Assembly: GCA_034620365.1 (NCBI GenBank)
Contig: JAQGEQ010000232.1
Span: forward strand, 620,001 to 684,000
Source of the DNA: Pegea sp. RAD2-039
Lineage: Eukaryota; Chordata; Thaliacea; Salpida; Salpidae
Length of the DNA: 64,000 nt
Direction: 5' to 3'
Of the stretch, positions 1,826 to 63,723 are shown in pieces (positions within the stretch are counted from its first letter, which is position 1; each line of letters begins with the position of its first letter). The notes below the pieces were generated by a model. The model was not told the DNA's origin and did no database searches. It saw nothing but the letters and a program-made list of their open reading frames with translations. The translations under genes and the position numbers were made by a program.

Positions 1826-2757
1826 TCAATAAACGCAAAGGAGGGTGCCTGAAGAGAGCACCTCTCGCTAACACATATTCTCACAAATAACATCTATTTA
1901 GCCAAAAATATAGAAAGTAAAAGATGTAACACATGGTATTTCGATAGCACTCAAAGCATATAACAGTGAACAATTACATATAATGTTAATAATATAAAAA
2001 GGGGAAAAAATCACAGTGTAGAAATGACAATGTTGGCAATATTATAACGGTTCAAGTTTTTTTAAACAACGCGAGTGATTCTGATAAGACAATGTCTGAT
2101 GGCAGCTAGTTCTAAGTACTAATTATTCGGTATGAGAAAAAATTTGCTCTAATTAACGTAGCAGGTGATATGGGTCTATTAAGATGTAATGTGTGTCGTC
2201 TGAGCTGATATAACTTGAGGGAAGGGCTGATGGAAAAGAAATCATCAAACTGAAGGTCAATTAAATTGTGGATAATTCTAAAAATAAGAATAAAATCGTA
2301 TTTAATCCGTCGAACTTCCAAAGTATCTAAATTTAAGAAGCTGAGACGATGTTTTTAACTATCGTATTTAATATTAAGTTTCCTGCATACCAATCTGGTA
2401 AATGTGGCCTGAACAGACTCGATTTTTTTGGTATCACTAACTTGATATGGCATTCATACACTGACATTGTATTTGAAAATTGGACATACGTACAATTTGA
2501 AAAGATTGGTAAAGAAGTATGGATCCTTAAAATTAAAGGTCTTTATAATAAGGAAGGCAAGGTTGATTGATCTTCCAAAGATTTTGGAAACATAATTGCA
2601 CCATTTAAAGTCAGATGATAGAGCAATACCAAGGTCTAGGGACCAACGATACTCGTTGAATAATAAATATATTGAGCTTGCAGCTGGTTTGCGGAAGAAA
2701 CTTATAAGTTCAGACTTTGTGGGCTGGATTCTGAGCTGCCGATTCATAGACCAGTTT
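1826..2757 (-). mobile_element. LINE 3' fragment, CR1/L2-like, copy 1 (5'-truncated, decayed)
   Basis: Read on the minus strand, this is the end of a non-LTR reverse transcriptase open frame. From about 2747 to 2454 it shows the region after the catalytic palm: a KSELISF block, LGIALSSDFKW, then LFKLYVCPIFKYN (compare the usual K.YVRP.LEYN). A frame change near 2450 leads into the C-terminal part: IESVQATFTRLVCRK, then EVRRIKYDFILIFRIIHNL at about 2321-2265, and finally FFSYRIIS..WNQLPSD..MS.SL..FKK. Several stops and frame breaks make it non-functional. The non-coding 3' end (1841-1866) can form a hairpin with GAGAGGTGC pairing to GCACCCTC through one bulge, of the kind that CR1/L2-type reverse transcriptases recognise. 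The 5' side ends near 2757, the usual truncation pattern. Assignment to CR1/L2 rather than another LINE clade is from the protein pattern only. Confidence 0.85.
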
Positions 2758-4413: not shown

Positions 4414-7400
4414 TCACTTTTCTTCTGCATCTGAAATCACTTTGATTCCAGATAAAACAAACCCTCGATTACCAGGCATCGTAACCTTCGGATGGCTTCG
4501 TTCAGGAAGAATCTACAAAAATTGTAAGTTTGAAATTGAAAATTTTAGATGATTCGCAGATAGACACAAATATTATTTATATAAAAATTAAAGCTGATCA
4601 ATCTTGAGATAAAATCTCTGAAATATTTGATTCATTTCTTACAATAAACGTGAAGGAGGGTGTCTGAAGAGAGCACCTCTCGCTAACACATTCTCACAAA
4701 TAATTTCTATTAAGTTAGAAATAAAGAAAGTAAAAGATGTAACACATGGTATTTCAGTAGTCTTCAAAGCATATGACAGTGAACAATTACATGGAATGTT
4801 AATAATATAAAAAAGGAAAAATCATAGTTTAAAAAAGACAATGTTGGCAATATTATAACGGTTCAACTTCTTTTTGAACAGCGCGAGTGATTCTGACATG
4901 ACAATGTCTGATGGCAGCTGGTTCCAAGTACTAATTGTTCGGTATGAAAAAAAATTTCTGAACAATGTACCAGGTGATATGGAATTATTAAGATTTAATG
5001 TGTCTTCTGAGATGATATAACTTGAGGGAAGGGCTATTTTTTAAATCGTTAAAAGGTAAACATTAAAAGAGAAATTTTCTATAAAATTCTTATGTTTATG
5101 AGACCTTTAAATTTGTGTTTCAGAAAACGTTTCGATGCTTAAATTTATAAATAATCTTTTTTATATTTTTCGATTTAAAATTACTTAAGATATTTAAAAT
5201 AAATTTCAGTTTATTCAAAATTGCGAAATTAGTTTAATTTAAAAAGTTATTTTCGAAAATCAATATTTTTCAATTGTAAAAGACAAATCAATTCAAATTT
5301 CTCACAACTTTTTTAATTCACTTGAAGTATTTTAAGCTGATCAAATTTTCTAATTAAATCGATTTGTTTATTTATATTAATTTTCAAAAAATTGATTAAC
5401 AAACAAAATAATTTATAAACAAAAAAAAATGAAATTTAAAACATTTAGGATAAAAAACTTCTTTAAATCAATTAAAATATATTTTCTAAAATGTCTGTCA
5501 CAACATTATCAAATCTTTGATTTAAAAGATCGGCGACTAACTTAAAACCCACTACAGCTATAAAAAGCCAACAAAGCACCTAGACCTAGAAAAGTCACTA
5601 GCCTACAAACCAACTTAAGAAATTGTCTTCTATAAACGCAAGAAATTGAATATAAAACCAGTAATGACCTGATAATACCTCATAAAGGTATCTGTAAGTT
5701 GGAGGTTGATTGCTATTCCATTCATTGATAGATGAACAAATAATTCCATCAAAGGCTCACGGTGTTCACAATAAACAGCAAAGGGTCTTGATGCCGCAAG
5801 CTGCTTCATTAGCTTCGTTACTATCGGGGTTGGATGCATTCTAAAAACCAAATTTATAAAAATAAACAGCAGAAAAAATCAACAAAATACCGGCAAGCTA
5901 CAATCAAGGCATCCATCTTAGCTGATCTTAATAACTGGATTGCTTCCAATTGATGTCCTCTTCTCTTCTTCCTTCTCTCAGATCGGATCATTAATCTTTC
6001 TTCTCTGCTTAGTTCTAACGTTTTGTCGTGTTTTCTTTTTCTCGTAGGTGGGATCATTTCTTTGACTTCGTTTGGATCATCTTGTATCATCTCAAGATCA
6101 TCTTTAGGTAGAAGATCATTAATGGATTCATCTTTACACTCTAGTACAGATGTTAGCTTGTGTAAGGGAAGAGAATGGAGTGTGTCCCAGTGTTGATCTT
6201 GAAGATTAAGATGGGAGACTGCGAAAAGGTTAGGAGCAGTCTCTCCTCCAGCGTGGAGGTTCACAACAGCTCCTATGATCAATTGTAAGAAGTTGGAAGA
6301 GCAATTGATGAAGATTACCGTTTCCAGCTAATCGTTCAAGAACTGATCCTAAAACCACTCCAGAACATGTCTCAACTACAATCACTTTAGATCCACTTCT
6401 CACGTTTGCCATTGTGAGTAATTGCGACAACGAATCAACTTGCATTTGACAGATCTTACTTGGTTCACGTTCTTCGTACAACCGGCAAAGCAAGCGAGCA
6501 TTTGGTCTGTTTATAAATGAAAATTTTGAGAAAATATTTCTAGTTAAAGAAGTAAAATAGTAAATATTATTTTCTATTTTTGAATTTTATATAAAACTTT
6601 TTAAACCTTAATACTTGGATAATTGCCAAATGTTTTTTCTGTTTCTTCTTTAGATATTTTTTTTGTGAAAAAACTGTTTTCTCTGAGAATGAAGAACTAT
6701 TTTCTACAATACTTTGAACAATTTTATCTCCAGAAATTCCAGATTTTTTCATTTCAACAATTTCATCTCGATCTAAAGACTGGGACCCACCATGTAAATC
6801 AACTAAACACCTGTAGAATTGCAGAATAGTAAAAACGAATTACTTAACATCAAGCAAAGTAAATTGGCAACTTAAAAATAATTTTTAGAAGACTATAGAC
6901 ACAAATTAATCTTAATTTTACCATTTAGATTACAGCAACAAATCTTTAAATATTATTTAGATCTATTTAATTTGGAGAAAATAAACTAGCATGTAACAAA
7001 TGAACATCATAATCAAAACTAAAAGCTTATTTCTAATGTAAATAAATTTTATATTAAACTATGTAGCTATTAAATCATTTTTTCATCAGCTTTTAATTAT
7101 TTTATAAGTAGATAATAACTAGACAAACTTTTTTAGCTTATATAAATAAACATATTTAAGAATAATTCAAATGGAAGTTACTTTTGGAGCTGAACAATAT
7201 TAAGAATTTTAAATCTTATATACAAATTAAAATGTATAAATTTTATTAACAAGTATATTAGATTTTTATATTCTCAACAATTCTACTTCATTAAAAGTTG
7301 GAAACAATAAACTAATTAAAAATTCCAAATCATAACCTAATACTCTAAATATATAAATATAAATAAATAAAATTACTTATAACATATAATTTCAATGATT

Positions 7401-19811: not shown

Positions 19812-19843
19812 CCAAACCAAACATAAAGCTCTTTTGACACAGG

Positions 19844-22800
19844 ATGGCATCTGCATGCCAAGTAAAAGCATATACATCATACGAAACAATAGCATCTCAG
19901 CAACAACAGCAACTTGAATCATCTGATAGTCCATCAGTGAATAGTAACGATATGGAGGCGAAATCACCCACATCGACTCCAGCAAGTCCTCTTGGCGGGG
20001 ATTATAACGTTTCAGGTCTGTCAAGAAAACGTTTTCGAAGCCGAAGTGTTAGTGGTGATGATAAAGGGCGATCAAATGAAGGAAATAACTCGAAGTTTTC
20101 GATCGCGAAGATTTTGGGTATGACATCAAGACCTACTCTACTGCCAGCAAATTTTCAAGACTCAGTAAAAGCGAAAAAATGGCAGAAAATTGAGGGAGGG
20201 GAATTAGAGGAGAATGAAAATAAACGCGCTAGAACTGAAGAGCATTTAGAAGATGAGAAATATTTCAGTGACAGCACACGCAACAAACCAACCCACCGCG
20301 ATAAAAAATCCTTTACTTGTGAGGATGAAATATCAAAAGTATCATCAATGCAATCATTCCCAGAACAAGGGTCATCAGCTGGGTACAGTATTCGTGATGA
20401 AAAAGAAAGATTATCATCAAATTGGGGGTTTGTGAATCGAAATGACACAATTGAAGAAAGTCGTCGAATTGCCGCTTCAGTTTTATGCAGTTATTACGGA
20501 CGTTTAACTCCACAATGGAAAGTTTGGCAGGATCTACTTCTACGCAGAAATGTCCATAAACTCCCTGGAAACGATGACGTCATGACAGCGGCTGCTGGTA
20601 ACGTCATTCCTAGCTATTCTGCTTACCAAGGACCCCGTGATAAGTACCCTGGTCATTCAACAACTGCATCAACAAGCTCAGCTAATTGCTTTGGATATCA
20701 AAATTCCGGTTCAACGTTTGAGACTCCAACCGAAAACACAAGGATCTTGGAGCTAAAAAATAGCCCACAAGGTTAGTTTCTTCATCTTCTTTGTTTTTGC
20801 TCATCTACAGTTTTTGGGGGGGGGGTGGGTTTTTTGAACGCTGTTATCTTACTTTTGAGAAATTCACTGTTTTTAATGGATTTGCAGTTTCTAAGATAAA
20901 GTTTACTAATTAGATGTGATTAAATTTGTAAAATTATCTGAAAAACTAAAAGTTCGTTCGAGTTTTGTAGATTTAAATTCAATAATTGTTTTATTTTTCT
21001 TAAACGTAGTCTCTTCCAGAATTAAAAACAAACAATATCCAGTTTCAGATGATATATAAACATTTACAAGAATATTTAGATTGAGTATTATAAACAAGAT
21101 GAAATAAAAAGTAATTCTAGTAATATATATTTATGGTGATCATTAATGAATTTTAAGCATATGTCAAAAAACATTACTTTAAAAAATTTGATTTCCAGAA
21201 AGGATAGAGTTTATTTACCAAACTTTGAAAATCTAAATACAGTTATCTTTTGACTATTAAGAAATTTTTCATATTCACTTTTAATTAGTAAGTCTTTATC
21301 TGTCAAATCTTTTATCAGTATAAATTGTGAATTAAGAAAATTGATTTTCAAATTTTTATTTGAAACATTTGCTAAATACTTTGAAAATAACGTAATTTGA
21401 AAATTGAAATCTTAGGTTTGTTATGATTCAAATTCATTCTTTTTAAGGATCTTATTTTTGTCAGCAAAATTTCCACTTGACAATTTTGGCAAGCATTTTA
21501 ATTATTAGTTGGTAAGATGGGATAATAAAACCCTTGATGATAATTTTTTGTTTTAATGACGTGCCCATACAACGAAATACATAAAGGTTTTTTGTTCTAT
21601 AAAACCTTGATGAGCTATAAATACAGATGTACACTTCGTTATTTAACTAATTTTTAAATTTCATGATTTTTTCTAAAAATTCTGATTTAATATAATTAAA
21701 TTAAGATAAGACCTTGTCGACACAGAGATAATTAAGCAAAATAAATGTCAGTTTCTTTTTAAAATAGAATAGAAATACTAGCAATTATATTTTTACACAT
21801 TTATGGTTTAATCTATAATTCTACTTTTAAATTCTTTCAAATGATGTCTTATAAAAGATAAAACATTTAAAGAAAAGTTATATACAGTATAAATGTAGTT
21901 TTGATTCATTAGTATGAGAATGTATGTAGAAATGGAATAAAACGTTTTTGAGTGTTACACTTCTAGAAACATTTTCTGATATAGCTTAAAATGGATTAAC
22001 AAACGCAAGGCATATTGTTTGACAGTCAAACCATCTTTTTATCAAGGGAAAACTAAATCTTACCGATTATTGATGTAAGCATTAACTACAGAAAAATTTT
22101 TGATGTATATCTTAAGAAAATTTTTAAATCTTCTTAAGTAACAGCAAGTAAGATTTGGTTCCAAATAAGAAAAGCGTGTTTCTTGCTTGGAAATCGGTAG
22201 AATTTAATTTGAAATATTCTGTTTTTTTATCTCTTTTTAAAAGCTAAGTAGTCTAAGGAATAAGTTGAAGATGATAAATCAGACTGACATTATTTCTTTT
22301 CCAATGGTTTAACTTATTCATCATCTTAAATAAGAAATTAAATAAAAACTTATCATCTGATCTTTTTGATATTCAATAAAAAATTCACAATCTAATTATA
22401 AATTATTATCTATATTATATAGACAGTTCAATAAGCGGTAATGAAAACTAACGACTTTTGTTCTTTATTGAAAATCTATTACTTATCATCAATAACAAAA
22501 CCATGTTAAACTTACAGTAGAAATTTTATCATAGTTTATAAAGTTTTATATCAAATCCTATAATTAACCTACATGTCAGTCCACTTAAAACGTTTAATTA
22601 ATTTCAAAGTAAAGTTCTAAAGAAAACCATCTAAAAGTCAAACTACAATTTAAACAACATCTTAAAAGACAGAAAATTTCAAGCAGATTATAGATGGTAT
22701 ATAATTTTTCTAATGGAACTTATAATTGAAAAATATGAAAAGTAAACGTTTAATTATCATTATAACCAAACAAATAAATCCTTTGCCAAAATTATTCTTT

Positions 22801-34800: not shown

Positions 34801-37800
34801 ACAAGAAGAGGTGTAACTTCATGAAATTTACATCGCATTTCTTTTTATTGAAATTTTAATGTCTATAAGTTGTTACTGAAAAATGAACAAAAGCCAAAAT
34901 AGTGATATAAACATCTTCATTAATAATTTTTAAAAGAAAATCTTTTGTTAAAAAAATATTTAGGTCAGTAACATAAATGCTTTGTACTCATGTTCTAAAT
35001 AGGTTTTAAAGAAATATCGATCTAATATTCTGAAAAATATACCTTTACTATAACTTCTAATAAAAATTTGGTTTATTTTTAGATTAAATCAGTAAAATAT
35101 ACATTTGCTATCTATGATGATGTTAATGATATTGACTTATGTTTTCCAATATAGAAAATAAATGTTTTAACCCTTTAAAGACACTAGCTTTAGGTATAAA
35201 GCATGTTGATGTGTTGATAATTTTAAACAATTAATTTTATTCTTATAAAAACAAGATATTTAGTTCAATAAAACAACTGTAAGAATATTTGTTCAAACTT
35301 TTTAGATTTAACTAAAACGTTCGATTTTACTAAAATCAATTTACTGTTGTAAAACTTAATCTTATTTATACCAAAAATTGTAATTATTTAATTAAGGCAA
35401 ATTTTATTCATTATTTAGCGTTAGCTAAAAATCTTTTATCTTAAACAAATTATTCAACTAACATCATAAATTTTATCATTTTAGCAAAGTATACATCATT
35501 TTCTCAAACGCTTTTTTTAATTTAAATTCTTTGGTTTACATTTAAGAAAGACTTTTCCAAGACATGTTTTTTGATATTATAAATATTGCTTTGTTGAAAG
35601 TCATTTTAATAATTTAGAATGATGGTAGTTTGCGACGCTTAAACATATAATTGATCAAAGAGGTAAATGTGAAAAATAAAAGATGAAATTAATATTTGAA
35701 AATTACATTCTTAACCCCTCAAAAAATATCTAACCTTTACAAATATTTAAATGAGTTTATAACTAATAATTGCTGTTGCTTTATAAGCACCAATCTTCAA
35801 GCCTATAAATGGATGAAGATTTCTATTAAGTTTAATTCTAAGTCTTTGAAATCAATCCAAACTTAAAATCTTAATATGTCATTAAGTCTTTGTTTAAATT
35901 TCTTGAAGAGTTATTTTAATTTTTGCTTGGAAGTTTTATTTCTTGGCCTAAATAATGTTAGCCTACAAAAATTCTAAATCTCAGACTTTTAAATGAACAA
36001 ATATCCAACTAAAGTCATGATGTCAATAGCAAGACTTTACAATCTATCAATTTAATTTTTAATAATTGTTATTGCTAAATTGAATACAGTTAGTTAACAA
36101 CCAGAAAATTATTTCAAAGCTTAGGAAAATAAGATTGAAGTATATCCAAGCATTTAATTTGTCTTTTTATTTGTCTCTTTTTTTAATCTACATTTTATTT
36201 TGAATTTAACTCGCAATACATACGTTTAAAATAAAAAGCCCTTTTCTTTGTACTTATCGTATTTTTTCTCGTCAACTAAGAAATTGTTTTAACGTCGGAT
36301 TGAAAAAAGATTTTCTTCGAGTTAGATAGTACATATGAAACTTAAAATAAGTTAGTATGTCGCTTTATAAGAAAATTTATAATCCGAGCATATTGATTCT
36401 GTAGCAGAAGAAGTTGTGACTTTTTTTTATAAATATACCGTTTAAAAATTACCTCTACACTTTATTGATCTTAAAAGACAAGTAACGTAAATAAGATTTG
36501 TTCAGATATTCTATGTTTTATCACCCTTATTCTTGACAGTATTATTTATTCCTACTAACTTTTTAAAGAACTTTTACTTACACAAGATATCCATTTAAGA
36601 TTTTTCAAGCTTACCGATAATTAGTTGCTCGTAGGCTTTATGCTTAGAACAAAAACAAAAAATCTGTGGCGAAGTACTCTTCGTTCTTGTCGTGGCTTAA
36701 ATCATGACGAAAATTGATTATAATCTTTCAACTTTTCGTTATTCACATTTGTACTTACTTAAAGATGCAACAGAAAAGAACGACATGCACTTGTTGACAA
36801 ATAAACCTTCAAGATTTTCATGTTGTGTCGTCATGTTTGTTTGACAGTCACAACACTGGGTTGTGTTAGGCTGACATAAATATTCTATCGGCTTGTGATG
36901 AGAAGTTCTTTTCTTTTTCCTCTGATGTTACAAATGACATTTTTCTGCATTAAGTCTCTGGACACCGGAGGTAAAAAAACAGGGATCTATATCTTGAGAA
37001 ATTTCCTGAATCAATTAGGGTTTTCTTGAAAAGGTGCATAACAGAATGAGGTAAAATTTGAAAGCGAAAAAAACAAATGAAATCATTTGGGAATTGATAA
37101 GTTTGATGAATGAAACAACAAATTACATGTCGTTTTCTGTGAAACAAAACTTTATCCAGCATTTGATGTGCCAGCATACTTCAAATAAATTCTAAATTCA
37201 ATTTCTAAAAATATGTAAAAAGTCTAAATTTGAATATAGATAGACAGTTAACTGACTCTGTTTTTTTCAGTGAAGTCAAAGACATTGAATTCAAACCAGC
37301 TCCATTTCCAAATGAATCAGATCCCAAAAATACTGATGCAAACACAAATGGTCGATTCGATGACGGTGGATGCAGTGAGCCACGCAAGAAGAAAACACGG
37401 ACAGTTTTTTCTCGAAGTCAAATCTTCCAACTAGAATCAACCTTTGAAGTTAAACGTTATCTAAGTAGCTCTGAAAGAGCGACTTTAGCGTCTAACTTGA
37501 ATCTAACAGAAACGCAGGTAAGGCAAGTTTACAAGATTTGTAATGTAAATTAAATTATATAGCACTTCGAATCTATAAAATATTTTTATTTGATGTAAAT
37601 GTCTGTTGAAAATACTCATAAACAACATACGATTTAATATGTCAACTGAAATTGAATAAAGCTTATTGTAAGTGTTAACGTGTAAGACATCTTACAGACC
37701 TTTGAGTCTTAAAAGATCAAACCGTCCGTCTGAACTAGAATTTGAGATTATAATCTGTAGTAGTAGTTTAATAAGCGTTATGATTAGTAACCAGGTGCAA

Positions 37801-39763
37801 CTTAAAGCTTCAGTATCAACTGGTGATTGATCAATAGCTGGTTGCTAGATAGTTTACAGGCAATAGTTATTTCTAACAAGTATATTGGTTAGCTCTTTTG
37901 ATAATTGATCCATAGCCGCTCAAAGCGTTAAAAATTAGAAGGTTGTCGTTTACATAAGGAAAGAACAAAGACGTTTTCCACAAGTGACAGCACATCTTTC
38001 AACCAGAAAGAGCATAACGCTTACTTAGCCGTCTCTTTGATATTTATACTTGGCTTCAATCATTAGTAATTGAACTCAGCGGCACCTATGATATTCATAT
38101 GCACCTGGTAAATTTTTTCAACCCAACACTTAAGTCTTGGCATCACTTAACATGCTTATGTTCCGTCATTTGCTATTTTAAGTATTCCCTACTCAATTTG
38201 AGTCATAAAGTACCCGTGCCTTTTTGGATACAATCCATGTCACCTCTAAAGGACCCACAACTTATAAGCGACGACTGCAAAAGATGTAGACCCATTTGTC
38301 TAGCTTGGCAAGAAAAACGGTCGTTGGAAACATAGATGAAATTATCTCCAGAATTTGTTATGGGTGGGAACCTGTTAATCCAGTACCAAAACAATCAACG
38401 CAGAGGATGGCATGAAGTAATTTGCTTGTGGTATCTATTCTGATCTCTTATTTTGTTCTATGTTTTACAAAAGTGAACAACCTTAAAATTAAAGAAAAAA
38501 GTTCATTAAATTTGCTACATCTTGTTTAATGCGATTAAATATTAATGGTCCAGTGGAACAATTTTTCTTTAGAATTATTTTTTGAAAGATTACTCATGCT
38601 TCAAAAGAAAATTACAGCTCTCAGAGTCTTTACACTAATTTAAGGTTATAACGAATTGCTAGGAAATAAAGATTACCTCATAAACCTCTCAACATTTCAT
38701 AAAAAGCGTTTTGAAATCGTCAGTTGTTTTTCTGTTAACGTTTAACAGTTACAATCCATATTTTAAATTTAAGCTTGCATATGAATCCAAAGATTTTTTA
38801 AGGTTTTTGGCAAACTTTTAAATAGTCCCTTTGAAGGTATGTAGATGCCAAATTTAAAGGTTGACGCCAACGATGAAAATATTATGTTTGCTTCCAACAC
38901 CAATTCAATTATAAACTGAATTTCACACGCCTGGTTGCTTACCTCTTCTTATAAAATGAAGACACACGACAAGGACTTCCTCTCATCTAGAAGCTTTAAT
39001 CAAATCACGAGCTATTTTCTTCCGCCTTAAGTGCTACTTATAGCTTAGAAATATTTTAAAAGAATCATTTTTTACTGATACCTAATCACCAATTTTTTTA
39101 CAGATAAAAATTTGGTTTCAAAACCGACGTAATAAATGGAAAAGACAAATTGCAACTGATGTAGATGGAATTGGAATCGGGATGCCGACTCAAGTGTTAC
39201 AAAGGAATCCAATTTTTGAAACGATTCCATCTCAAACTGATTTTTTAGCCTCATCAGAACGACATCGACATGTACAACAACATCAGCAACAGTTTTCACG
39301 ACATAATCAATTCGCAATAAACCTCAACCACTTTCCTGTTGCTTCTCAAGCGTTTAATGGATTCCAAGGCCTACCTAGGATGCCACCATACTCATGGTCC
39401 AATGGCATAGCTGGTCTAGGAAGAGTCCAGCAACATTATGCCGCCTTAGCAAACTATCCAAGGGCGATGGCTGCTGCTGCGATGGCTATGGCCGCTGCTG
39501 GGGGCGGGGCCAATTCAAACGCATTTTGTAAACAGCCAGGTGAACAGGTAGCTAAATGTGAAAGTGTATCGTTTCCACCAAGTGCTTCTGGTATGGTAGT
39601 TACGACTGCTTCTGAAGTATCAACTGGTGCTGTGTCTAGTTTTCATAAATATGAAAACACTCCTTCCCCTACTTCTTCAGTTGAAGGATTCTGTCGAAAG
39701 ACAACTATTCAGCAATCTGATCATGGTAGACTATCATCTAGCTCTAAATCAATTGATGGTTGA
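19844..39763 (+). CDS. Hmx: Hmx/NK5-class homeobox transcription factor
   Basis: Nuclear DNA-binding regulator of the HMX (NK5) class, known elsewhere for sensory and nervous-system specification. Exons: 19844-20771, 32618-32804, 37271-37517, 39104-39763; phase is continuous and the product is 673 residues. The start is fixed by an in-frame TGA at 19835-19837 just upstream. Residues 85-92 (FSIAKILG) are an Eh1-like Groucho-binding motif, as HMX proteins carry near the N-terminus. A Q5 run is at 19-23. The homeodomain spans 411-470, begins [20 protein letters not shown] and ends [16 protein letters not shown], with I47, Q50 and N51 as expected. RYLSSSERA and the KWKRQ continuation are HMX-diagnostic. 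An intron splits the homeodomain between positions 44 and 45. The C-terminal part has glutamine/histidine- and alanine/methionine-rich stretches (alanine-rich about 574-589). The long introns (11.8, 4.5 and 1.6 kb) and GC-balanced islands suggest extensive cis-regulation. Confidence 0.97.
20816..20825 (+). repeat. run of ten G just inside Hmx intron 1
   Basis: G10, then T, then GGG, 44 nt downstream of the exon 1 donor. Such a run is exceptional in this A+T-rich window. G-runs near donors can act as intronic splicing enhancers in animals; whether this one does is inference. Confidence 0.7.
31205..31885. other. GC-balanced island near the end of Hmx intron 1
   Basis: About 680 bp with near-even base use, CpG-containing words (ACCGCGGGAC, CTACGCCGAGG, TTTACGCGCTG) and sharp edges against A+T-rich DNA. 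A 61-codon open frame lies at 31217-31399 but has no domain, and stops are frequent beyond it. It lies about 0.7 kb before exon 2. I read it as a candidate enhancer or other conserved non-coding element; an ancient insertion is possible. Confidence 0.35.
32805..37270 (+). other. Hmx intron 2 (4.5 kb)
   Basis: Bounded by GAAAG|GTGACC and TTTTTTTCAG|TGAAG. Almost entirely A+T-rich. A moderately GC-richer patch lies at about 36640-37000. The minus-strand open frame at 36950-37177 has no recognisable domain and is treated as chance. Confidence 0.6.
37518..39103 (+). other. Hmx intron 3 (1.6 kb), interrupting the homeobox, with a GC-balanced island
   Basis: Bounded by ACGCAG|GTAAGG and TTTTTTTACAG|ATAAAA. 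The central part (about 38040-38410) is GC-balanced and contains overlapping short open frames on both strands with no family resemblance. The word GCTTATGTTCCGTC here (38154-38167) recurs at 40630-40643 downstream of the gene. A regulatory role is an inference from location and composition. Confidence 0.5.
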
Positions 39764-48500: not shown

Positions 48501-50225
48501 GTATAGACTTTCAATTTAAAATTGAATTTTAATCAGACATTTTTACAGACAGTATCTCACTTCTAAAGATATAATTTTGAATTCCGCAAAAACCACTTTA
48601 AGTTTATAATTTATCTTCATTGATAGTTATATTTCAAATTCGTTTTTCTCAACGTTATTTATAATACTGCTTTTGTGCTTTCATTTATTTTGGTGACAAT
48701 TATAAGCCAGAATCTTCTAAATTGAGTGCACAGTATTAGATAAAAACCAAAGTCTAACGCTATATGATGGAATTTTAATAATTTTCTTGGCATCTAAGAC
48801 ATATTATCATAACTGTTACAGATGAATAGTTTTATAAACTTACTTTTTTAAGCTAGATAAATCTTAGATCACTTAAATTACAATTTAATTTATTGGAATA
48901 AAGCCAGCTTTAATATACCTCAAAAGTTGTATTCAAAATATATATGAAAGTATAAATTTAAAACTTTGTAAGTCATTACATTTTAATTTAATTTAAAAAC
49001 TTAAACTTAATATAATGGTTTGTTTAGCATTCTGTTTTTTAAGCAACTTAAATAGTTTTCTTTGTAAATGAAGCATTTATAAATTTAAAAGAAATCATTT
49101 TGTTTAATTAAACTTTTTTCTATGTAAAGTTACTTGTTTAGTTTTTACCAAATTCATTAACACAATTTAAAGTGACTTTCTAATAAAAAAGAATAAATTA
49201 TATTTTCAAAAAATGATCAAAAGAACTCTTTATAGCAAATTGAAATTACTTGCTTATAGACAAATGAGTTTTTTATTATTTTAATATTGAATTACAATCA
49301 AAAAAGTTTTGAGTAATTATCAATCTTGTAAATGTTTAATAATTGTTGCATATTGTACTGACACTTTGTAAATTAATCTGAAAATCACTGAAGCGTGACC
49401 CGAAAACATAAACTCAATCATGCGTGAAGTATTGGAAAAGCTTACTTGAAAAACTGTCAACTTTCAAAGTGAAACAATTAAAAGCGAATTTATTTTTAAT
49501 CTCTTAGGCTTAATAATATTTAAAATTTTAAACAAATAAATTTAAGCTGTCAATCAAAAATTTATTTTTGTTTTTTTAACCTATTGTTTTATTAGGATTT
49601 CTACTTAAAAGATATAACAAAAAAAATTATTATTAAATGATTTTTATTTTTCGGGTTTTCCCCATCTTTCGAACTAATATCTAAATAATCAAATTACGGA
49701 GAATTTTTTGTACTTTTTACATAAATTAGTCATTAATATATATTAATCTGATATTAATTTAAAAATATAAAAAATTTTACAATTATTTTCAGAAAAACAT
49801 TTTTAAACAAAACACCTAAAATACGAAACTAATTGAAATTTTTAAGCTAAATTTATTCTTTGCTTTTTTCTATACAAATAATATTTATTTTAATCTTTAA
49901 AAATCTTTAATTTTTTTTAATATATTTGCTTAGTATCATTTCCACAGCATTTTTTAAAATATTTTGAATTAAAAAAAAATTATTTTTAATTTCTATAGAA
50001 TTATATTTCAATTTTTAATAATAAATTAAAAAAAAGTCGTGAGTCTATTAAATGATAACAATGAATTATCATTCTTTATATGAAATCGGAACAAAAACAA
50101 AAGAATCTAAATATATTTCATTTGAAACTTCCTGTTTAAAAAACAAACACAAAGAAAAAATATAATATAAAAACGTAGTATTTTGTGAAAATTTATCTTC
50201 ATCAAAAATACTGGATTAAAAGTAG
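42561..50225. other. A+T-rich intergenic region, no gene recognised
   Basis: No exon with family resemblance was found on either strand across 7.7 kb. A small GC-richer patch lies at about 47220-47600 and holds a 71-codon minus-strand frame (47559-47344) without a recognisable domain. A TGACGTCA palindrome occurs near 45590. Confidence 0.5.
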
Positions 50226-50293: not shown

Positions 50294-51638
50294 ATGAGAG
50301 TATTACTTCTTGTAGCTTTCATTGTTCTGTTTGGAGTCTCTCAGAGTCAGTTTTCCAACAAAAATTATTTCGATGATCTAATTTATAAAGTAAGTTTCAA
50401 CAAATGTTGTAAAACTCAACAAAAAAATTAATTTAAGAATTACATCTTCTAACTCTTTATACAAATTTTAATTTTATTTTATAATCATATTAAGGAGCTT
50501 TTTACGTTGGACTCAATTAAATAAAAACATTTTGAAGCATTTAAAAATGATTCGTCTTTTCATAATTTCTAATTTTTTTAAAGAATCTAAATGAAGATCT
50601 TGATGAAGCTGAAGATACAGATTTTTCCGAACTTGAAAATAAGAATGAAAATAAATTTCAAGGTAAGTTTTATCTTTTATTTGTTCCCAGCTACTTCTAA
50701 ATCTTCAATTATTAAAACATCAGTTTCTGTAAAATATAAGAAAAACTTTATTCTTTTATTTATAAGAGTTGTTCATTAAAACAAAGTTTCTTGGATGAAA
50801 GACACAAAAACTCCAAAACTGCAACATATCTTTTAAAATATTTTAAAACTTATTACTTTTAATGATTGATTAATTAGTTTTTAATTCATTTTTGTTTTAT
50901 TAGATTCAGATGAAAAAATTGCTGCTGAAAAAAGACAAGTTTTGAAAGATTTGAAAAACGCTATGACTCGAGGTTTTGAAACTTTTCGATAATTGCAATA
51001 ATAATATTATAATAATTATTACTAGTAAATAAAAAAAGGTTTAATTTAGGATCAACAAAAGGACAGAAAGTGAAAATTTTGAAAGAGTTATCAAAAATCA
51101 GAAGACAAATGGGAGGTTAGTGTCTTCAGAGATGAATAATTAAAATAGAGACGAGAAGATCTTGATGCTGATTGATACTACAACTATTTATTAATTTGTT
51201 GAAAATTACAGATTTTAAATCAGTTTCGTCGGAAAAGAAACAAATTATAAAAGATTTGAAACAAATTGCAAAAGGAGGTTAGTTTTATATTATTCTGTTA
51301 TTTAATCTTCGTACTATAAACAAACTTTATATGTTTTCAATTCAAACTTGTATCTAAAGTATTCCATCAAAATATTAACAAACTATTTATCAATAAATTT
51401 AGTTTGTTTCCAAAATTAATGAAATATTTTGTAGGTCCAAATGTTGGAGAAGAAAAAAAAGTTATCAAAGAATTGAAAACTTTAAAAAAGCAGCTAAAAA
51501 GAGGTAAATCCTTTGTAAAAAGTATCTATCTATTGCAAACATTTGATAAATATCATGATTAAGTACTTATAATATGCTTGTGTCTTTTATACAGACTTCT
51601 TCAATGAAATAAGTAATGAAGATGAACGTTACTGGTAA
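50294..51638 (+). CDS. secreted lysine-rich protein of four tandem amphipathic modules, family not recognised
   Basis: Exons: 50294-50389, 50584-50662, 50904-50972, 51050-51115, 51212-51277, 51435-51503, 51595-51638; product 162 residues. Residues 1-18 are a signal peptide (MRVLLLVAFIVLFGVSQS). Exon 2 (33-58) is very acidic (10 D/E, 2 K). Exons 3-6 each encode one module of 22-23 residues (59-81, 82-103, 104-125, 126-148) sharing the core (E/Q)K-x-x-(V/I)-(I/L)-K-(D/E)-L-(K/S); examples are VLKDLKNAM, ILKELSKIRR, IIKDLKQIAK and VIKELKTLKK. Module net charges by count are about +1, +6, +3 and +5. The tail (149-162) is acidic. There are no cysteines. Every module exon is bounded by phase-1 introns, so the array clearly arose by exon duplication. 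The exon 3 donor (G|GTTTTG) is weak. It could be a precursor of cationic helical peptides or a coiled-coil structural protein; I cannot assign a function. Confidence 0.85.
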
Positions 51639-51846: not shown

Positions 51847-51852
51847 AATAAA
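51847..51852 (+). terminator. polyadenylation signal of the modular peptide gene
   Basis: AATAAA in GTGAATAAACTTTAG, 209 nt after the stop codon and before the convergent transferrin 3' end. Confidence 0.6.
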
Positions 51853-52156: not shown

Positions 52157-53726
<1,570 letters not shown>

Positions 53727-57494: not shown

Positions 57495-58062
57495 GCAAAG
57501 GACTTACTAACACACATTTTCACAAATAATTATTATATATAATTAAGTCATAAATGTAGAAAGCAAAAGATGTAACATATGGCATTTCGATAGCACTCAA
57601 AGCATATAACAGTGAACAATTACATGGAATTATAATAATATAAAAAAGAAAAAAAAATTATAGTTTAGAAATGACAATGTTGGCAATATTATAACGGTTC
57701 AACTTCTTTTTGAACAACGCGAGTGATTTCGACATGACAATGTCTGATGGCAGCTGGTTCCATATACTAATTGTGAGGTATAAGAAAAAATTTACTCTAA
57801 TTAACGTACCAGGTGATATGAGCTTATTAAGATGTAATGTGTGTTGTCTGAGTTGATATAACTTGAGGGAAGGACTAATGGAAAAAAAGCATCGAATTTA
57901 AGGCCAATTAAACTGTGGATAATCTTCAGGGTAAGAATTATTCAATCCGTCAAACTTCCAAAGTATCTAAATTGAGGAAACTGAGACGATGTTCATAATT
58001 ATTGTATTTAATAACAGGTTTCCTGCATACCAATCTCGTGAATGTTGTCTGAATAGATTCAA
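57495..58062 (-). mobile_element. LINE 3' fragment, CR1/L2-like, copy 3 (decayed)
   Basis: Matches copy 1 from the 3' end up to the IESVQ-equivalent region. Shared words include GACAATGTTGGCAATATTAT, GATGGCAGCTGGTTCCA and AGGTGATATGAGCTTATTA. On the minus strand it keeps ISPSLKLYQLRQHTLHLN and STWNQLPSDIVMS-like residues with frame breaks. The terminal hairpin stretch is deleted near 57497. Same orientation as the other two copies. Confidence 0.85.
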
Positions 58063-61436: not shown

Positions 61437-63723
61437 ATGATAATTCTGAAGATTTTACTGTTGGTTAGCTATTCAGTATTCACAAAAACAATAGGTGAAT
61501 AAGAATTGTATATTTCAATAAAATTTACGGAATATTTTTCATATAAATATTTCTAAACTATTAGATGCTCCATCTGACTTAAAAGCGGTTGAACTATCAA
61601 CTCACAGCTTTTCAGTTTCATGGAGAAACTTTGACACGAGAGCCAGTGCATTTATTGCAACTATTTACCAATTAAATGATGGAGAAAAAACAGAACTTTC
61701 AAAGGTTTGTAAATTTGCGAATAAGATGGTTTAGTTGAAAACTAGACATTTAAATCGATACAAATTTGATTTTTAGAGAGTGGATGCTATTAAAACTTGT
61801 CTTTTAAAGGTAAGATACAAATCTGACTTCTTTAAAACCTTATCAACTTTTAAAATTGTGTTTAGTACATCAATGAAAGCTTTGCGACTTGGACAGACCT
61901 TATACCGGGCAAAACTTACAAAGTGTCTGTCTTATCAATAGATAAAAGAGAAGAGATTAGCGCTATTGTGGGTGAAGACATCACAACTCGTAAGATTTAT
62001 CAACAGATCAATAGAAATGAGACAGAAACCTGATCCACAGGACCAATGCCACCTTCGGGACTAAAAGCTCTTCCTTTTATGAGTAACGAAGCTCCTAGAT
62101 GGTTGTTAGATTCGGGAAGAGTTGATCTTTTAGAGAACATCACAATCTTTGGGATGCTTGTAGATTGGAGTAATCCTGTTATAGGAGTTTTTGATCATTT
62201 TTTGATCTCTGTGTATCCTCCACATGGGAAGATTTTTACAAGAAGAGGTTTGGAAGTTTTTATTCTAAACAGATCATTGATTGTGTCTCTAGTGAAAAGA
62301 TACACGGACATTTCGACCGAAAGAGTCATCTGGGATTTGCTTCCAGGATTTTATTATGACGTCATGGTCAGAAGTGAGAGTAACGGAGTTGAGAGTGAAC
62401 CGTCTTCAACAGGATTACGGATCCGTAGGTGATCCTAGCATCCAAAATGACATCTAATCTCAATTTTTTAGCTCCTGAAAAACCTGGAACGATTAAAATT
62501 GTTTCGGTGAGAGACGATCAAGTTTTGTTGTCTTGGGAAAGTCCTCATCGTGGGAAGATTGATGATTATATCATCCAATTATCACCACTAGGTGGAAACG
62601 TTGTGATTCCATCTAACCGTACAAAGAAGAAAAGACTTATTCGTAACTTAATTTCTGGTTAGTTAAGAAAGTAGTTAAAATTCTAGAAAAACTTATTTAT
62701 AATTGAAAAGAATTCAAACTGAAGTTGTATTTCAAGAAGAACATATGCTGAAGTCAAAATAAATTCAGCTGTAAAAAACTTGCTGACTAAAAACCAGTTT
62801 TAAACTATGTGATCAATCAAAATTGTTTTTTTTGTAGTTTTTCTTATAATTTAACAATTTCTATTATTTGTTGAAATTTATACAACAAATCTTAACTTAA
62901 AATTCTTATTTTTCGACAAATTATCTGAAAATGATTATAATTGTTTTCTGATTTACAAATCTGTCTAAAAACTATCTTTTAATTGGCTCCAAAATATAAG
63001 AATTAGAATCTGAAAGTATTTTATTTCAGTAATTAAAGTTTAACTTAAATTTTAAAACAGTTTAAAAGATGCAAATATTTTAGGAACAAAGTATTCAGCC
63101 AAGGTCTTTAGCTCAGTTGATTCTCTTCTGAGTATGAATGGGACATCAGTATCTTTCACGACTCCACCAAAACCACCTTCAAGCCAAATTCACGTGCCTC
63201 AAATTTATTCTAACTCAATTATATTGTTTTGGCAAGCAACTAAAGGAAATTTGGATTACTATCAAGTACAATTATTTTTCAAACTTTGCTGTGCTTCAAA
63301 TAACAACAATATTTTCCTATTGATTATAACCTGACTAAAAAACAGATTTCTACTATTCAAAATACCTAGTATGTTCATAAAACGTGATATAAGTATTTCT
63401 AGTAGTATAAGGTTTGGTGTTAAAGAAGCAATTATTTACAGATTATTTACTACCCCACTAAAAATCGTGACAGAAAATATCTGAAAACAACAAATCAAAC
63501 AATTACTCTTGAAAACCTAACAGAAAACACAGAGTATACTATAGAGGTGTATACAGCAAGTAATGGAATATATAGTTTACCAAAAATTATAAAAGCTATA
63601 ACTAGTAAGTATTAAAATTACTAAAATCAATATTGGAGGCATTATCAAGGAACTTTTATTTCAGAACCGAAACCGATAGAAGTGAACGAGGCAGAACTAA
63701 ACCATGACACAAATATGAGTTAG
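61437..63723 (+). CDS. secreted protein with four fibronectin type III domains
   Basis: Exons: 61437-61494, 61565-61704, 61777-61809, 61866-61989, 62041-62424, 62472-62657, 63084-63265, 63442-63604, 63665-63723; phase is continuous, product 442 residues. Residues 1-17 or so are a signal peptide (MIILKILLLVSYSVF). FN3-1 spans 20-119 (W39, LIPGKTY with Y95), FN3-2 120-246 (W161; about 127 residues, longer than the usual 90 because of an insertion before its first strands), FN3-3 247-336 (W268), FN3-4 337-423 (W358, NLTENTEY with Y401). A short hydrophilic tail (424-442) ends the protein; there is no membrane segment. Domain borders carry phase-1 introns, typical of shuffled FN3 modules. The exon 5 donor is ATCC|GTAGGT, since the alternative AG|GTGATC leads to a stop. 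Likely an extracellular adhesion or matrix protein; I cannot tie it to a named family. Confidence 0.88.

Follow-up and report, generated by a model that had tools for sequence, protein, structure and literature searches.

Within the window, by which we mean the whole 64,000-nucleotide stretch that was analysed, the forward strand carries a candidate gene of seven short exons that would encode a small secreted protein. The gene, its parts and two nearby motifs are as follows:

50166..50171, + strand: TATAAA, candidate promoter element by motif only, 128 bp 5' of the start codon
50294-51638, + strand: whole gene, seven exons, 489 nt, a 162-aa frame once joined
50294..50389, + strand: exon 1, with the start codon, a putative signal peptide of about 18 residues (cleavage site placed by eye) and the first residues of the mature chain
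50584..50662, + strand: exon 2, an acidic stretch with a net charge of -8
50904..50972, + strand: exon 3, module 1 (M1), 69 nt, phase 1-1, net charge +1
51050..51115, + strand: exon 4, module 2 (M2), 66 nt, phase 1-1, net charge +6, the module with the poorest leave-one-out recovery
51212..51277, + strand: exon 5, module 3 (M3), 66 nt, phase 1-1, net charge +3
51435..51503, + strand: exon 6, module 4 (M4), 69 nt, phase 1-1, net charge +5
51595..51638, + strand: exon 7, acidic tail DFFNEISNEDERYW, net charge -4, followed by the stop
51847..51852, + strand: AATAAA, candidate polyadenylation signal by motif only

Between 50.0 and 52.0 kb, TATAAA occurs at four further sites and AATAAA at five.

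Next to the gene lies a secreted transferrin gene on the opposite strand (52157-53726, -), convergent with the gene studied here and apparently of a single lobe; hand splicing gives 344 aa, which match Pfam Transferrin with an E-value of 4.6e-56 over profile positions 3-327 of 328. Farther upstream lies a homeodomain split by an intron (37209-37553 and 39086-39763, +), with Pfam positions 1-45 above and 43-57 below the cut-off, presumably of the Hmx/NK5 type as judged by eye; the open frame at 19838-20776 may, by eye, be the first coding exon of the same gene. The Gcd10p family, which we take to be the TRM6 tRNA methyltransferase subunit, is represented at 5854-6586 (-), where Pfam gives an E-value of 6.7e-19 for 6230-6586 and the adjoining frame at 5854-6327 (-), without a Pfam match, looks by eye like its continuation. 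Judged by eye, two similar pieces at 2112-2756 (-) and 57658-57897 (-) resemble the end portion of a LINE-type reverse transcriptase, and Pfam returned no match for 2454-2756, part of one of them. Near the far end of the window, an exon at 62034-62432 (+) is fibronectin type III-like (Pfam fn3, E-value 1.7e-4, 22.1 bits, below the cut-off of 25), and similar-looking frames follow by eye up to 63334, perhaps belonging to a larger gene that leaves the window.

Splicing and reading frame

The first-pass annotation had described seven exons in continuous phase, and our splicing reproduced them exactly, coordinates included, as a 162-aa frame with GT-AG boundaries at all six introns. The introns are 77-241 bp long with a GC content of 16-28%, and the seven exons measure 44-96 nt with 26-32% GC, in a window of 26% GC and a genome of 29% GC (ten scattered 10-kb stretches). 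Only one donor of the gene is weak, that of exon 3 (GTTTTG); the neighbouring transferrin gene appears by eye to use similar donors (GTTTGA, GTTTAT and GTTAGT). In the joined coding frame GC amounts to 44, 23 and 21% at the first, second and third codon positions, and a run of 162 open codons at the local composition has a chance of about 8e-8 without correction for splice-site choice. The predicted mass, signal peptide excluded, is about 17 kDa.

The layout first proposed for the product, in which a signal peptide and an acidic part precede four modules encoded one per exon and an acidic tail, also held up. Net charges of successive segments run -8, +1, +6, +3, +5 and -4, with the modules summing to +15, and the repeat score given below agrees with the division into modules. 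Exons 3-6 are all symmetric (phase 1-1) with one module each, so each could be skipped or duplicated while the frame is kept. This anatomy, an open frame of seven exons in which four symmetric phase-1 exons appear to code similar lysine-rich modules, is the firm part of our analysis and very probably correct.

Similarity of the modules and their possible helical pattern

The four modules resemble one another beyond their composition. Their summed best ungapped pairwise BLOSUM62 score is 222, compared with 110 ± 9.6 for shuffles that preserve the composition of each module, and none of 3000 such within-module shuffles reaches it (shuffle maximum 149). Likewise, the best common 17-residue register scores 190 against 36 ± 15, with 0 of 150 shuffles as high. 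When a profile of three modules was used to hunt the fourth among 8055 six-frame segments covering 184 kb, M3 ranked 1st, M4 2nd (one unrelated segment above it) and M1 4th (three above it). M2 was not recovered by the profile of the other three, ranking 280th of 8055 with many unrelated segments above it. A profile built from all four modules, which match it at 27.5-35.4 bits by construction, found no fifth module above 5.5 bits elsewhere in the contig between 669.5 and 672.5 kb.

The highest pair scores are those of M1-M3 (49) and M2-M4 (46), the remaining four pairs scoring 23, 31, 33 and 40. That M1 pairs best with M3 and M2 with M4 hints at a possible duplication of a two-exon (ABAB) unit. 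DNA identities of only 25-32 of 51 positions (M1-M3 32/51, M1-M4 31/51, M3-M4 28/51 and M2-M4 27/51) leave such a two-unit duplication unsettled at the DNA level.

The lysine and hydrophobic spacing of the modules had been read as a sign of amphipathic helices, a proposal that stands in part. Among eight spacings tested, pairs of I, L, V or M occur more often than expected at i+7 (z = +3.0) and less often at i+2 (z = -2.4) and i+5 (z = -2.8); the enrichments at i+3 (z = +1.7) and i+4 (z = +1.2) are not significant alone. Hydrophobic spacing of this kind is helical and heptad-like. The proposed hydrophobic stripe shows most clearly in M2 and M4, whose hydrophobic residues fall at i, i+4, i+7 and i+11. 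Against this, the hydrophobic moment exceeds that of shuffles at p < 0.05 in only one of the four modules (M1 p = 0.16, M2 0.40, M3 0.03, M4 0.16), and mean hydrophobicity is low throughout (-0.29 to -0.51 on the Eisenberg scale). Heptad-like spacing combined with low hydrophobicity would, in our judgement, speak less for free membrane-lytic peptides than for a short helix bundle or a coiled coil. Opposite-charge pairs at i+3 or i+4 are rarer than expected by chance (7 vs 14.0 ± 3.0), pointing to helices without stabilising salt bridges. Helix propensity drops where one module meets the next, markedly at residues 121-130 (G-G-P) and mildly at about 79-84 and 100-106.

Searches for relatives

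The view that the protein belongs to no known family stands for the collections searched, where every Pfam and NCBIfam match lies below cut-off and the best PDB match is an artificial coiled coil. With the whole protein as query, none of the eight families listed by Pfam at E ≤ 10, nor of the eight listed by NCBIfam, passes its cut-off, and the same is true of the nine Pfam families returned when the query was the modules and the tail. Among Pfam families GapR_DNA-bd (PF10073) comes closest, at 18.1 bits for the whole protein and 19.9 bits for modules plus tail, compared with a gathering cut-off of 22.6. Exchangeable apolipoproteins are built of 11/22-mer helical repeats; the Pfam apolipoprotein family is not among the eight listed at E ≤ 10, a range in which the HMMER filters leave few matches beyond about 0.1. 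PDB chain sequences gave 27 weak matches at E ≤ 10, the best to sc-apCC-4 (8a3k, E-value 4e-4), a single chain designed as an antiparallel coiled coil. Occludin chains and other, presumably helical, proteins follow. The likeness to sc-apCC-4 is probably compositional.

We then turned to the animal's own genome (105.7 Mb in 387 contigs), in which no second such gene was seen at the sensitivity used. The whole protein gave ten matches, seven of which are pieces of this gene and three weak matches elsewhere (E-values 1.15, 2.88 and 6.08). A degenerate DNA pattern of the module core matched 96 places (39 + 57), compared with 76 for a reversed control; four of the 96 are this gene, and ten belong to a single identical repeat on C6, of which a further identical copy lies on C11. 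Reading through the 96, we found four different core copies clustered on one strand only at this locus. Four of the 92 other places, picked for their resemblance, contain no second pattern match within their surrounding 1.1-1.2 kb. Because the pattern was derived from these modules, the search excludes an equally similar second cluster, not diverged relatives. Two weak profile hits, at C35:607086 (with a stop soon after the match) and C35:608651 (a 16-residue segment), were taken as chance.

Ten identical 26-base matches lie at C6:3671874-3680999 (-), seven of their nine gaps measuring 642-647 bases, with the C11 copy as an eleventh; the C6 matches probably form a tandem repeat with units of roughly 647 bases. 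In the same genome the arthropod cuticle family PF00379 has no match, which carries little weight given that the 14 control genomes gave none either, and COX1 did not turn up. Two RT-qPCR primers of Brachionus plicatilis (PMC11219915) matched nowhere with up to 3 mismatches; this speaks against that species, though only moderately, as a primer could straddle two exons.

Pattern stretches numbered 63 in the prokaryote collection and 10 in the viral collection, in none of which a relative was confirmed, and Rfam gave no match in the window at the gathering score. Among the entries listed by narrow word searches of the literature, no title or abstract beginning describes such a protein, and the portions of PMC1925144, PMC8878817 and PMC2938724 available to us contain nothing on it.

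Interpretation and known systems

A signal peptide followed by an acidic part and basic repeats fits two designs: a basic helical protein that stays whole, or a precursor of peptides. We favour the former, with a probability of roughly 40%: the gene may encode a lineage-restricted, secreted, cationic helical protein that acts as an intact chain and has grown by exon duplication. Each module would fold into a single short helix bearing a heptad-like stripe of hydrophobic residues, and Gly-, Ser- or Pro-containing turns near the exon junctions would connect successive helices. The four helices may assemble into a small bundle, or into an antiparallel coiled coil, whose outside is basic. The gene would have grown as a symmetric exon was duplicated, perhaps within the two-exon unit at which the module pairings hint. 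During secretion the acidic segment and tail (-8 and -4) could offset the basic modules (+15), and outside the cell the basic surface might bind polyanions, for example extracellular DNA, mucus glycans or the envelopes of microbes. As to function, our best guess is a protective role through polyanion binding, offered tentatively and more apt to be wrong than right.

A doubtful alternative is that the protein is the precursor of linear cationic peptides for defence or secretion, with an acidic propeptide and modules that are cut apart to act on membranes. Spider linear-peptide precursors share the order of signal peptide, acidic part and cationic units, as described in the accessible part of PMC8290080, and module charges of +1 to +6 would suit such peptides. 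The modules, however, are of low mean hydrophobicity and lack spider-type linkers bounded by processing quadruplets: in a PQM scan only AEKR (66), within module 1, and EDER (157), in the tail, fit, and none lies between modules. There is no excess of dibasic sites (6 against a chance expectation of 7.8), and by eye these sites fall at differing positions across the modules. The absence of a dibasic excess, the scattered positions and the confinement of quadruplets to module 1 and the tail favour an intact chain over a precursor.

Secreted matrices often contain lineage-restricted repeat proteins, which counts for another reading that we regard as unlikely, namely a structural or matrix protein of an egg coat, cuticle, glue or mucus whose basic helices would cross-link or coat polyanions. 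The symmetry of all four module exons, each skippable or duplicable in frame, would allow module number to be tuned by exons, as this reading supposes. The protein, however, is short, with four modules only, and its composition past residue 20 (0 Cys, 3 Tyr, 6 Gly and 1 Pro) is ill-suited to cross-linking.

We give little credence to an elaboration of polyanion binding in which the gene encodes a new kind of secreted effector, a symmetric-exon cassette of cationic heptad helices whose number and order could be altered by duplicating or skipping exons, with acidic ends serving as a built-in mask. It is very unlikely that the locus is no working gene at all and instead a decayed or chance chain of exons in AT-rich DNA; the weak exon 3 donor and the failure to recover M2 would fit this, but module similarity, the GC bias among codon positions, six compatible splice junctions and the 162-codon open frame all argue for a gene. 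Least probable, by our estimate, is a neuropeptide or peptide-hormone precursor with the modules as peptide copies. Repeated units do follow a signal peptide, and Q follows four of the six module-region dibasic sites by eye (EKRQ, IRRQ, EKKQ, LKKQ), but these Q-flanked sites occupy two module positions, so that cleavage would not yield equivalent peptides, the dibasic count is not above chance, and inspection by eye shows no Gly-Lys-Arg amidation site.

What we favour is nothing unusual as a kind, namely a secreted orphan gene enlarged through exon duplication, and its anatomy is tidy. If expressed, the gene would offer a clean case of a secreted gene enlarged by duplicating one symmetric exon, in which module and exon boundaries coincide, and probably helix boundaries too; otherwise it would simply join the many secreted orphan genes in an animal that has been little studied.

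We file the gene under none of the schistosome MEG (micro-exon gene) proteins, the helminth defence molecules or the spider precursors. With the GapR-like DNA-binding domain (PF10073), which is helical, bacterial and intracellular, it shares a lysine-rich helical stretch, but the match stays below the Pfam cut-off; sc-apCC-4 is an artificial protein, unlike the natural gene considered here. According to the available part of PMC10526429, schistosome MEG proteins are likewise secreted and encoded by short exons mostly in multiples of three. Their genes, as given there, consist of 10-20 exons, all very short at 6-81 bp and for the most part of 15 bp, with introns from 100 to almost 5000 bp long; the gene here has seven exons (44-96 nt), its introns measure 77-241 bp, and its exons repeat one module. 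The MEG motif, hydrophobic or aromatic with Trp and a basic residue soon past the signal peptide, is absent from our protein, whose single Trp is its final residue. Spider complex precursors, in the accessible part of PMC8290080, have acidic propeptides and, between the peptide units, linkers that carry iPQM/PQM cleavage motifs; the gene shares with them a signal peptide (by eye), an acidic exon 2 (-8) and then cationic modules (+15), but its modules adjoin directly. Helminth defence molecules of the FhHDM-1 type, compared by description only from the available part of PMC3093369, are also small secreted proteins with an amphipathic helix, for which LPS binding was shown; theirs is a single C-terminal helix freed by a protease, whereas the gene described here would encode four modules, each in its own exon.
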